From Lepraria neglecta (Eukaryota; Ascomycota; Lecanoromycetes; Lecanorales; Stereocaulaceae), in NCBI GenBank assembly GCA_033220425.1, contig CM065649.1, positions 248,001-312,000 of the forward strand: 64,000 nt of DNA. Reading direction: 5' to 3'. Shown here piece after piece: positions 18,138 through 27,438 of the stretch. The notes under the pieces are model-generated. The model was given only the letters and a program-made list of their open reading frames with translations, had not been told where the DNA came from and searched no databases. Position numbers and translations under genes: made by a program. Each line of letters begins with the position of its first letter. Positions within the stretch are counted from its first letter, which is position 1.

Positions 18138-18539
18138 ACGTCCATCCCTACGTGCCGGAAAACCCTACGTGCCGGAAAAATTAGCCGGTACTTTGACTTC
18201 AAGCATTTAAAAATCTATGCACACCGCATTATCTCCTTTTAATTTTTATAAGTTATGTTCCGTAGCCACTCCCGAACACCCTAAATGCCTCCGAATGAAA
18301 CAATCAAGTTCGCGTCGTCACCCTCACGCCTGATTTACGAATAGTATCCTTTTATAGCGTAATAGACTTCCTCTATTATAGCTGCATTACCGAGCTCATA
18401 CTATCTCTAAAACTTATGAAAGGGTCTTAGCTGGGCTCTCAGGCCTCCCTACTATACAGGAAATCGTGAACAGCTTTATAGCGGCTGTGGCGTGCAGATT
18501 CATGCAAGATCACCACGCGGGTCGGTACCTCGGATCGAA
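18138..18539 (+). repeat. Left long inverted arm of the 9.3-kb element
   Basis: About 402 bp aligning, inverted, with 27039-27438 until GGTACCTCGGATCGA, with many C/T and A/G differences. The outermost 45 bp hold two tandem copies of CCCTRCGTGCCGGAAAA, a likely doubled transposase-binding site. Confidence 0.8.
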
Positions 18540-18784
18540 GCGAGTGACGATCTTCGTGGGGAGCAGCCCTACATGCCCGACTCCGGACCTGTATTTCGAA
18601 GCCTTGATCCGAACAATCACGTGATATTTTGCCTGGAACTAGTCGATATCAGCAGAGGTGCCTCATTTTAAAGCTCAAATACTCACGCTGAGTACTTATA
18701 AATTACGAACCGTCAGCTCTATTAATCATATTCATGAGACTGTGATACGCTTCAAAATCTATCAAGTTACCCATCTTCAGTACT
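18540..18784. other. Spacer between left arm and NLR stop
   Basis: 245 bp, presumably the NLR 3' region. No other feature seen. Confidence 0.4.
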
Positions 18785-21700
18785 TCAGATTAACAGTGCA
18801 ACATCCTCTTGCTCAGCCTTCCATGTATCTAAAGCTGTGCAAGATGAAATAGAATCTGGATGATTAACTCCCAAGATACGTTTCTGTAACTGTACACATT
18901 CTTCCATAAGCCTTACAGCTTCAATTTCTTTACCGCTTCCCTTCCACGTAAACGCCAAATTGTTCATACTGGTCAGCGTGTCTGGGTGGTCCACTCCGAG
19001 CTTCGTCTTGCTCGTCTCTATGACTTGCACCTCCAGCTTTTCAGCATCATCCCACCGGCCTTGGTTCCTGTACGTCGATGCCAGGTTGGCCATGCTCGTC
19101 AGCGTGGAAGGGTGGTCCACTCCGAGCTTCGTCTTGCTCGTCTCCATGACTTGCACCTCCAGCTTTTCAGCATCATCCCACCGGCCTTGGTTCCTGTACG
19201 TCGATGCCAGGTTGGCCATGCTCGTCAGCGTGTCTGGGTGGTCCACTCCGAGCTTCGTCTTGCGAGTCTCCATGACTTGCACAAACAGCTTTTCAGCATC
19301 ATCCCACCGGCCTTGGTTCCTGTACGTCGATGCCAGGTTGGCCATGCTCGTCAGCGTGTCTGGGTGGTCCACTCCGAGCTTCGTCTTGCTCGTCTCCATG
19401 ACTTGCACAAACAGCTTTTCAGCATCATCCCACCGGCCTTGGTTCCTGTACGTCGATGCCAGGTTGGCCATGCTCGTCAGCGTGGAAGGGTGGTCCACTC
19501 CGAGCTTCGTCTTGCTCGTCTCCATGACTTGCACCTCCAGCTTTTCAGCATCATCCCACCGGCCTTGGTTCCTGTACGTCGATGCCAGGTTGGCCATGCT
19601 CGTCAGCGTGGAAGGGTGGTCCACTCCGAGCTTCGTCATGCGAGTCCCCATGACTTGCACGTCCAGCTTTTCAGCATCATCCCACCGGCCTTGGTTCCAA
19701 AGCGTCGATGCCAGGTTGGCCATGCTCGTCAGCGTGTCTGGGTGGTCCACTCCGAGCTTCGTCTTGCTCGTCTCCATGACTTGCACCTCCAGCTTTTCAG
19801 CATCATCCCACCGGCCTTGGTTCCAAAGCGTCGATGCCAGGTTGGCCATGCTCGTCAGCGTGTCTGGGTGGTCCACTCCGAGCTTCGTCTTGCTCGTCTC
19901 TATGACTTGCACCTCCAGCTTTTCAGCATCATCCCACCGGCCTTGGTTCCAAAGCGTCGATGCCAGGTTGGCCATGCTCGTCAGCGTGGAAGGGTGGTCC
20001 ACTCCGAGCTTCGTCTTGCTCGTCTCCATGACTTGCACCTCCAGCTTTTCAGCATCATCCCACCGGCCTTGGTTCCTGTACGTCGATGCCAGGTTGGCCA
20101 TGCTCGTCAGCGTGGAAGGGTGGTCCACTCCGAGCTTCGTCTTGCTCGTCTCCATGACTTGCACCTCCAGCTTTTCAGCATCATCCCACCGGCCTTGGTT
20201 CCTGTACGTCGATGCCAGGTTGGCCATGCTCGTCAGCGTGGAAGGGTGGTCCACTCCGAGCTTCGTCTTGCTCGTCTCCATGACTTGCACCTCCAGCTTT
20301 TCAGCATTATCCCACCGGCCTTGGTTCCTGTACGTCGATGCCAGGTTGGCCATGCTCGTCAGCGTGGAAGGGTGGTCCACTCCGAGCTTCGTCTTGCGAG
20401 TCTCCATGACTTGCACCTCCAGCTTTTCAGCATCATCCCACCGGCCTTGGTTCCTGTACGTCGATGCCAGGTTGGCCATGCTCGTCAGCGTGGAAGGGTG
20501 GTCCACTCCGAGCTTCGTCTTGCTCGTCTCCATGACTTGCACCTCCAGCTTTTCAGCATCATCCCACCGGCCTTGGTTCCTGTACGTCGATGCCAGGTTG
20601 GCCATGCTCGTCAGCGTGGAAGGGTGGTCCACTCCGAGCTTCGTCTTGCTCGTCTCCATGACTTGCACCTCCAGCTTTTCAGCATCATCCCACCGGCCTT
20701 GGTTCCTGTACGTCGATGCCAGGTTGGCCATGCTCGTCAGCGTGGAAGGGTGGTCCACTCCGAGCTTCGTCTTGCGAGTCTCCATGACTTGCACAAACAG
20801 CTTTTCAGCATCATCCCACCGGCCTTGGTTCCTGTACGTCGATGCCAGGTTGGCCATGCTCGTCAGCGTGTCTGGGTGGTCCACTCCGAGCTTCGTCTTG
20901 CGAGTCTCCATGACTTGCACCTCCAGCTTTTCAGCATCATCCCACTGGCCATTCAGGCTATGCGCCAAGCCCACCATTTCCATCCCATTTAGAGTATCAC
21001 TGTGCTCATCACCGAGAATCTTCTTTCGAACTTTCATCACATGAACCGCCATATTCTCTGTCTCTACACCTTTTCCCATTCTCAGGGCATACCATGCTGC
21101 GTTGTATAATATTGAAGCCCAGTCTAGTAAAGAATCTTGTTCCTTTGGCCTCTGTGCTGCTGCCGATTGTGCGTGTGGGAAGAGTGCCCGACACTTTTCC
21201 CAATTCTCGTACTCTCCCGTTGGAAGCTCTGCGTCAAGATTCTTGATAAATTGCCGCTTCCACCTCTCTATTTGCCCATGGGCCTCAAGCCATTTCTTCA
21301 TTGCTAGCTGTACGAGTCCGTGCATTTCGAATGTTGTGCCATTGGTGTTGACGGAGATGAACGAGTAATTTCGTAGGACTGAGACATCCTCTTCAAACCC
21401 ATCGCTCATAGAAGACTGTGATGCGCTGCCTTCTTCGTCATCAATATAGCCAGTATTATCATCAACACAACTACTAGCGGTGCTCTCCCTCTGGTCTTGC
21501 CTCGAATTTATCTGCTCGCTTCGATCTTGAAGTAGAGCATCAGGGATTCCTTGCCGGTCGAAAAAGCTTATAAGCGACAGTAAATCAGCCGCTGATGGTC
21601 TGATCTTGCGGACATGATCGAACGATATCTGCCACGTAACGATGATCGAATTCTTCGCCTCCCTATCTCGACGGAGTTGCTTGCTATTGTAGTCTAGAAG

Positions 21701-25966: not shown

Positions 25967-27038
25967 AGCGCAGATCGCGGGGAACTGGATCGCTGGGAGA
26001 AGAATAGAATTCAAGGTGGGTTTCTTGAGGCAGGCATGCGCAGGTCTCGCGACTAATTATTGTCAGTCATTACAATCTCGGCGCAAATAGAAGGGATAAA
26101 TCACCGCTTGGTAGGGGTTCGGTAGTATAATTGTAACCGTTTTCAATGCCACTGATTACATGGAATCTCTGTGACTCCATTTTCCTTCAGATATTATTAC
26201 TTGAGCCGCCTTTTGTACTGGTACATGCGGGGTCCTGATAGTTCTATGCCCACCGAAGGGTCATGCCTAAGTGAACATTGTCCCGTGTTGGTGTCACTGT
26301 TTATCAGGTAGTTCGAAAAGAGTAGTAAAGTCGACATATTGGATTGCGATGCTCGATAGAGGTGGCATTAATGCACCGTTGCATGAATAGCTTTGTAACT
26401 TGAAACATCTTTGTCAGGACTACTATTTACGCTGCCTGACTTCGTTGAGACTAACCTTAGATAGATGATATAATCTTGAGAGGCCGTCCTTCATCCACTT
26501 AGTGATTCTGGCATATCTCGTAAGGGGAATGGTCTGAGGCCTTGATGAATAGCTGAGAGAGGTTGGCCCACTTCCCCTTTAACTATGAGTGCCTCCGCTC
26601 CTTACGCTTGCGGCGGCTGCAAGTCTCTAGCGCTGTCTTTGGGTTCTGTTCGTCGATGGGGTGAAACATGAAAGAAGCACTGGGGCGTACCTCGTACAGG
26701 ACGGGACAATGACGTGGATACACTCCGCCGTGGTTCGTGCAACAAGAAGGGCAATGGTTTTCGATAGCCGTTTACATCTTGTCTTACAGGCTATTCAGAA
26801 CGCAGTACAGCTGGCTGGCATGTCATTGGTAGTCGTGAAGCTGCTGATGCCTCGCGAATTGTGCTGACGCCTTTCGCATGAAACCCGATCACGTGTATGC
26901 TTGAAGGGTTTGCCGTGTCATTAAGCATTACTAAGCTAGATGTGGCGCAAGGTGAAACTGGACTTCTATGCCTGAGGTAATTATAGATGAAAATTACGGC
27001 ATAAAATATTCCGGGGAGTGCGGAGCGCCCCAAAAACG
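25967..27038. other. Non-coding part of the 9.3-kb element
   Basis: About 1.07 kb with no credible gene; short frames only. No recognised repeats. Confidence 0.45.
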
Positions 27039-27438
27039 TCGATCCGAGGTACCGAACCGCGTGGCGATCCTGCATAGATTTGCACGCCACAACGCCATAA
27101 GAATATTAACGATCTCCCGCATATTGATAAGGGGCCTAAGAGCTCGGATGAACCCCTCTATAGGTATTAGGGGTAGCAGAAGTGTATTGGTAAGGCTATG
27201 GTAGAGGAAGTCTATTACGCTACAAAAGGATACTCTTTGTAAATCAAGCGTGAAGATAATAATATAAACGGAATTTTTGAATCGGAAGCATTTAGGGCAA
27301 TCGGGAGTGGTTATATAATATAACTTATAAAAAATAATAGGAGATACTATGGTGTGCACAGATTTTAAGATGCTTGAAGTCAAAGTACCTATTAGTTTTT
27401 CGGGCACGCAGGGTTTTCCGGCACGCAGGGATAGACGT
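27039..27438 (-). repeat. Right long inverted arm of the 9.3-kb element
   Basis: Inverted diverged copy of 18138-18539. The ORF on its minus strand (26994-27407) aligns as DNA, not as a conserved protein, with the left arm. Confidence 0.8.

Follow-up and report, generated by a model that had tools for sequence, protein, structure and literature searches.

A pogo-superfamily element with long inverted ends, likely one of a family that repeatedly carries NLR genes in a fungal genome

The locus described here lies in a 64,000-nucleotide stretch of DNA from Lepraria neglecta (assembly GCA_033220425.1, contig CM065649.1, positions 248,001 to 312,000), hereafter the window, which is part of a 5.2-Mb contig (C4) in a fungal genome of 42.0 Mb and 11 contigs. 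Within the window, a segment of 9,301 bp (18138-27438) has TA at either side and inverted ends, and it contains a NOD-like receptor (NLR) gene, a HeLo-like gene and a transposase gene. We consider it likely, with good confidence, that this segment belongs to a family of pogo-superfamily elements with long inverted ends that repeatedly carries NLRs, here together with a probable cell-death partner. Transposition and horizontal carriage of the element are both inferred from sequence comparison.

The junctions of the element read ...GGTATATA|ACGTCC on the left and GACGT|TAGCC... on the right, and the TA target-site copies, to which no strand applies, are at 18136-18137 and 27439-27440. The left terminal inverted repeat (TIR) is about 403 bp long (18138-18540, + strand) and the right TIR occupies 27039-27438 (- strand); these two arms are 77.0% identical over 400 aligned columns, with 68 transitions and 24 transversions. 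A tandem motif of the form CGTGCCGGAAAACCC-N3-GTGCCGGAAAA is present in the left end (18151-18179, + strand), where it is a putative transposase binding site, and the same pattern search places it in the right end (27397-27425, - strand). With up to three mismatches allowed, the pattern was found at five places in the genome and its reversed control at none. The element interrupts a Fot1-type pogo transposon, whose left half (16871-18137, + strand) was delimited by alignment to an intact pogo copy on contig C7 and whose right half follows at 27439-28312 (+ strand). When the two halves are joined at the TA they form one block of 2,119 bp that is 94.9% identical to the uninterrupted copy at C7:3912592-3914736, whereas the alignment of the unjoined window to that copy breaks at the insertion TA. 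The empty site is therefore present in the same genome, in the form of another pogo copy. The original prediction had described a TA-flanked segment with inverted ends that splits a pogo element at one exact base, and the arms, the TA letters and the C7 copy all bear this description out.

The NLR gene is on the - strand (18785-22697) and consists of a first exon with a PP-type motif (22697-22598), a P-loop exon (22544-22397) and a main exon of near-identical 126-bp TPR units (22349-18785), the exon borders having been set by eye from GT/AG and the reading frame. After splicing, the P-loop exon reads GLGGVGKSQLA by eye. Pfam finds 17 TPR_10 stretches in the long exon and gives DUF7779 and TPR-like families there, and it did not call the nucleotide-binding domain as NB-ARC or NACHT in that exon. 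Most 300-base windows of the TPR array are 90-95% identical to a reference copy; high internal conservation is also described for fungal NLR repeats (PMC4986451). The HeLo-like (PigL_N) gene is on the + strand (22880-23764, exons 22880-23310 and 23362-23764, borders by eye) and encodes a PP-type motif at its C-terminus; the spliced protein is 99% identical to P0121 over its full length. The two genes are divergent with about 180 bp between their start codons. The first NLR exon bears the motif ISFGEANSGFQAGIIHGSVN and the HeLo-like protein ends in VTFGPQNSGFQAGNINGGVN, and the alignment score of this pair was reached by 0 of 20,000 shuffles. The shared motif, an amyloid motif, fits the PP core NxGxQxG, except for a displaced last N (PMC3321046, PMC9815663). 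A sigma-motif label was considered for it and dropped, as the motif fits the PP consensus of PMC3321046; the Pfam model Ses_B matches the effector C-terminus at an E of 0.64 only.

A structure model of the HeLo-like protein is of middling confidence (pLDDT 67, pTM 0.48). MLKL and plant CC-R domains are among its structural matches, but unrelated helical bundles score equal or higher, and the matches are no more than compatible with the reading of a helical domain. Other HeLo-family folds are absent from the VIA match list, which is uninformative either way. Foldseek alone returned nothing for the model at an E of 0.001 or better, and a PDB sequence search with the HeLo-like profile gave three matches (E 0.12-0.78), none of them useful. 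The pair had been labeled as HELLP/HET-S-like. Taking HELLP to be the PP-motif system, that half of the label holds, with a PP-type motif at the N-terminus of the NLR and at the C-terminus of the HeLo-like protein, and the HET-S half does not.

The third gene (24186-25966, + strand) encodes a pogo-superfamily transposase with DDE_1 and HTH_Tnp_Tc5 domains in Pfam, and its frame is broken near 24,990. There are 35 residues between the second and third D, as counted in the intact relative P0001 (96% identical), and we take this DD35D spacing to be the pogo value. The presence of NLR, HeLo-like and DDE transposase genes inside the segment is confirmed by Pfam; the predicted DD35D gene stands in its spacing (in P0001) and pogo type, with the correction that its frame is broken. 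A non-autonomous copy can still count as a member of the pogo superfamily. In a Pfam scan that covered the element's five main reading frames, no DUF3435 tyrosine recombinase captain was matched. A search for the transposase in viral contigs gave 44 pattern matches, of which 0 were confirmed.

Relatives of the element were sought genome-wide with its arms and those of its relatives; the counts from these searches are lower bounds. Seven elements have two readable ends. Besides the window element, whose NLR is of PP-NB-TPR type, these are C5 (C5:598618-607069), with a NACHT-WD40 NLR and a separate PigL_N gene; C3 (C3:298629-304004), with a CHAT-NB-ARC-TPR NLR; C1b (C1:5348881-5355778), with a SesA-NB-ARC-TPR NLR; C3b (C3:1520805-1529917), with a NACHT_N-NACHT NLR; C7a (C7:2150198-2153864), with a transposase gene and none of the listed NLRs; and C6a (C6:4103526-4108103), with a C2H2 zinc-finger gene and an unassigned frame. 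An NLR is present in five of the seven, and the NLR types vary. The NLR of C5 has one in-frame stop ahead of the P-loop. Four of the elements (that of the window, C1b, C3b and C7a) contain a transposase gene or parts of one. TA is found on both sides of all six elements whose ends were located without a TA requirement (window, C5, C3, C1b, C3b and C7a), and the seventh, C6a, was completed by scans that required TA. The elements have a common end layout, a start like ACGTCC.TCCC followed by a tandem motif of GTGCCGGAAAA, GTGATGAAA or GTCGCGAG type. The arms start TA-A[CT]GTC and have tandem motifs of GTGCCGGAAAA or GTCGCGAGAC type, a GGTACTTT-like stretch is present at one or both ends of five of the seven elements, and the arms are about 400-660 bp long in the four elements measured.

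Four further arm pairs were found. The pair at C6:2068453-2074540 encloses a NACHT gene that is the best NACHT match of the genome, with WD40 repeats by eye in the next frame; TA is at its left end, and the outer ~115-130 bp of its right arm was not found. The ends of the other three are known as search matches only: C1:3456696-3462488 encloses a NACHT with two stops, C5:282162-288924 a broken TPR array with no NB match, and C2:578762-581348 none of the listed NLRs. Overall, an NLR lies inside seven of the 11 arm pairs. The same end layout thus encloses other NLRs at other loci of the same genome, and together with the empty pogo site this supports the earlier proposal that the NLR and HeLo-like pair is, or recently was, the cargo of a DNA transposon. 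A same-clade transposase gene was also observed just beyond the right end of C6a (region C6:4103526-4110122).

The association with NLRs was evaluated on the seven pairs found by arm sequence (C5, C3, C6:2068453, C1:3456696, C5:282162, C6a and C2:578762), although the C6a region had been retrieved for its transposase as well. An NLR with an NB domain is present in four of these seven where 0.075 are expected, a Poisson probability of about 1e-6. The window (given), C1b and C7a (found by transposase search) and C3b (opened for an NLR near transposase pieces) were excluded from this statistic. The expectation is derived from 80 merged NB-ARC/NACHT loci in 42.0 Mb, which are lower bounds and include some NACHT matches below the Pfam cut-off, and it assumes that NLRs are randomly placed, an assumption that favours the cargo claim.

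It could be thought that the NLRs are accidental passengers, trapped as neighbours between close ends of a transposase-only family, NLRs being common in repeat-rich DNA. A DDE_1 homologue is indeed found within 5 kb of 8 of the 80 NLR loci against 1.4 expected (0 of 2,000 simulations gave as many) and within 20 kb of 10 of the 80 against 5.0 expected (55 of 2,000 simulations), with the sizes of contigs C8-C10 guessed in the simulation; additionally, one element of the family holds a zinc-finger gene instead of an NLR. However, four of the eight close neighbours were opened and each is an ordinary 2.1-kb pogo beside or at the edge of an NLR, with inverted ends of 46-49 bp and only the transposase inside. 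Proximity by itself is therefore not cargo, and it was dropped as evidence for it. The other four close neighbours comprise C1b and C3b, which are cargo elements, and the loci C1:3542213 and C6:3001469. As far as tested, the cargo habit belongs to the long-ended family, and the NLRs in four of its seven arm-found pairs, along with the recurrence of related NACHT genes across different arm types, also speak against chance trapping, which we regard as unlikely. One of the ordinary 2.1-kb pogo elements (C5:2676171-2678245) borders directly on an NLR reading frame and may lie inside the gene.

The kinship of the cargo was examined with the NACHT of C5. Its closest kin in this genome are two NACHT genes that likewise lie inside elements (62% and 53%), followed by C6:1993528 (43%) and then by matches of 32% and lower. 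The arms around the C5 NACHT and around its two element-borne relatives are of three types, and one arm type (that of C1b and C6:2068453) holds different NLR classes, which suggests old shared cargo or cargo exchanged between element lineages. Of four elements whose arms were tested for marks resembling repeat-induced point mutation (RIP), two have them, as does one transposase. The composite RIP index is positive in both window arms, the left arm of C1b, the C1b transposase and the interrupted pogo of the window (left half +0.14, right half +0.55). Values slightly below zero were obtained for the transposase pieces of C3b (-0.02) and the left arms of C3 (-0.05) and C5 (-0.25). The cargo stretches tested (NLR and HeLo-like/PigL_N) of the window, C5, C3 and C1b look unmarked, with a clearly negative index of -0.52 to -0.88, and the ordinary flanks of the window are clearly negative too. 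We infer that RIP can disable the multi-copy parts of the vehicle and let the single-copy receptor survive, and dead vehicles may in this way leave live receptors behind.

The lineage of the host was examined with RAD50, scoring being limited to the 7,992 candidates that had most words in common with it. The best named matches are Lecanoromycetes (Alectoria 52%, Lasallia 50%, Lecanora 49%, Psora crenata 47%), and no named Leotiomycete is among the 120 matches listed, many of which are unnamed and the last named of which are 41-43% identical. By this protein the host looks like a Lecanoromycete. We presume the class of most genera in the RAD50 and HeLo-like lists; six taxa were class-checked, of which Protoblastenia, Xylographa, Teloschistes and Psora are Lecanoromycetes and the rest Leotiomycetes. 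The HeLo-like protein is 90% identical to a protein of the leotiomycete Cadophora sp. M221, 88% to those of Pseudogymnoascus, Rhexocercosporidium and another Cadophora, and 87% to that of Leptodontidium. A 99% match is found in a metagenome-assembled genome (MAG) of Protoblastenia rupestris and a partial 93% match in Xylographa, and a short Teloschistes exilis model groups with the window protein; these three lichens belong to three orders. A further four homologues from Lecanoromycetes reach only 58-62% identity. In a tree of 41 rows (the window protein and 40 of the 120 listed matches) the window protein nests within Leotiomycetes with starred support. Forcing one Lecanoromycete clade on the HeLo-like tree was rejected (p-AU 1.1e-5) in a test of 22 rows that left out the partial lichen sequences P0148 and P0177, metagenome rows and others. 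The tree and the identities conflict with the host lineage, and the HeLo-like gene was therefore very probably acquired horizontally.

Contamination of lichen MAGs, together with high conservation of the gene, could give close HeLo-like matches as well. The protein with 99% identity comes from a MAG contig of 7,152 bp, and the contigs with the Xylographa and Teloschistes exilis matches are ~10 kb long. Against this, the window is within a 5.2-Mb contig, three of the Leotiomycete matches at 87-88% come from contigs 1.4-3.9 Mb long, and a gene that is merely conserved does not agree with the low identity of the four other Lecanoromycete homologues. We hold this explanation to be very improbable.

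P0001, which stands in for the transposase of the element, likewise falls among Leotiomycete sequences in a tree of 26 rows (23 of the 120 listed matches and three genes of the same genome) whose named rows are Leotiomycete and Dothideomycete only; some forks of this tree are less well supported. The simplest reading of these relationships is that the element itself brought the HeLo-like gene across classes. The gene could instead have come horizontally by another vehicle, such as a Starship or hyphal contact, and have been captured later by a resident pogo. This would fit a comparison of contig sizes, in which 119 of the 120 listed transposase matches and the 120 HeLo-like matches share none, so that the compared listings give no sign that the Leotiomycete copies sit in such an element; the shared Leotiomycete affinity of the transposase speaks for joint transfer as the simplest course, and we regard later capture as possible and the less probable of the two. 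We conclude that NLR modules are probably recurrent pogo-type cargo that has crossed fungal classes, and that such elements, or their cargo, probably passed between Leotiomycetes and lichen fungi.

Several observations, in addition to the contig-size comparison, weigh against a mobile family with NLR cargo. The window transposase is frameshifted relative to intact relatives that are up to 98% identical, and this copy should therefore make no full-length enzyme. Identity between the arms of one element is only 69-79% in the four measured, none of which therefore looks recent, and C5 and C3 gave no trace of a transposase (tblastn, E 0.01). Three arm pairs (C6a, C7a and C2:578762-581348) are without an NLR. 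Among seven unpaired arms, one of them a 100-bp fragment, a listed NLR lies within 30 kb of C8:438121-438713 only, the nearest listed NLR being at least 36 kb from each of the other six. The diverged arms and the elements without transposase could also be expected if the arms and NLRs were an old segmental duplication family of the host with no transposon involved. However, TA is at both ends, the insertion falls exactly on one TA of a different transposon, an empty copy of which exists at another locus, and four elements contain a transposase of related type; the empty site in particular brings a duplication origin close to refuted, and we give it hardly any credence.

For a long-ended transposon, it is envisaged that a same-clade transposase would bind the tandem GTGCCGGAAAA-type end motifs, pair the long ends, excise the element and insert it at TA, with the window copy depending on an outside source of the enzyme. 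By analogy with HELLP pairs, the likeliest way for the carried pair to function is as follows. The NLR would sense a ligand through its TPR array and be opened by ligand binding, its N-terminal PP motif would then template the PP motif of the HeLo-like protein, and the helical domain of the latter would permeabilise membranes so that the cell dies. Possible roles of such NLRs include incompatibility and defence against viruses or rivals.

Several known systems resemble parts of this arrangement. The HELLP/NLR pairs with a PP motif belong to fungal amyloid-controlled cell death (PMC3321046, PMC9815663). In them, adjacent NLR and HeLo-like genes likewise carry the PP motif at the N-terminus of the NLR and the C-terminus of the effector; here the pair is within a 9.3-kb TIR transposon and the effector is of PigL_N type. 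Giant Starships are described as fungal mobile elements with NLR cargo that are tied to horizontal transfer (PMC9594970, PMC12134995), and PMC9815663, citing the Starship paper, states that NLRs can ride transposons. Starships are very large and use a DUF3435 tyrosine recombinase (PMC9594970, PMC12134995), whereas the present elements are 5-9 kb, of DDE type, with long inverted ends and a TA target. The pogo/Fot1 elements of fungi (PMC7386202, PMC4188875) have the same DDE_1 transposase with a Tc5-type helix-turn-helix and the same TA target. In contrast to the present family with its gene cargo and ends of 400-660 bp, each of the four ordinary pogo elements opened here measures ~2.1 kb, has ends of 46-49 bp and carries no cargo. 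ToxhAT is of hAT type rather than pogo. This 14-kb element moves ToxA (PMC6737239, PMC12506042) and is likewise a small DNA transposon that shifts a functional gene between fungal species, but its cargo is a single effector gene and that of the present element is an immune-receptor pair. In searches of the open-licence literature, no listed paper was recognisable as describing NLR cargo in pogo, Fot1 or TIR elements, and giant Starships were the only carriers found. What is new here is a family of small DDE-type elements that target TA and serve as vehicles for NLR modules of fungi; NLR cargo of Starships was already known.

For the origin of the large and patchy NLR repertoires of fungi, a family of small NLR-carrying transposons is a concrete and testable route. 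One copy holds a putative, near-complete death pathway, and the route would place genes of recognition, whose usual effect is to restrict exchange among individuals, on mobile DNA that may itself cross lineages. A bolder and tentative proposal, which we find doubtful as it stands, is that NLR-effector modules are a core selected part of the family, like the defence or addiction modules on mobile elements of bacteria, and a main source of new fungal NLRs. If so, the element would spread through a gain in host recognition, or by killing cells that lose it or meet a rival, and repeated insertion, death of the vehicle by RIP and cross-class transfer would feed the NLR supply of fungi.

Additional loci were noted during the searches. 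At C8:430616-438713, two NB-ARC matches, TPR repeats and one family arm lie within 8 kb, a possible further element. A single arm on C2 (4146753-4147187) with transposase remnants and no listed NLR was not counted as a pair, since its partner arm was not found; beside it, at C2:4142851-4146499, are two long overlapping open frames that by eye are methyltransferase/FAD-oxidase-like and kinase/phosphoribosyltransferase-like. At C1:3540179-3548100, a HET-NACHT-WD40 gene is ~3 kb from a same-clade transposase with an open frame of 576 residues (50% identity). The transposase at C1:3546583 was not counted as a cargo case; its inverted repeats of >5 kb look like inverted retroelement copies and the family ends were not found. 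Lastly, TPR_10 matches of equal score are present near contig ends at C7:21351-21476 and C9:18330-18455, with NACHT matches at C7:24613 and C9:21592, which suggests a duplicated subtelomeric NLR region.

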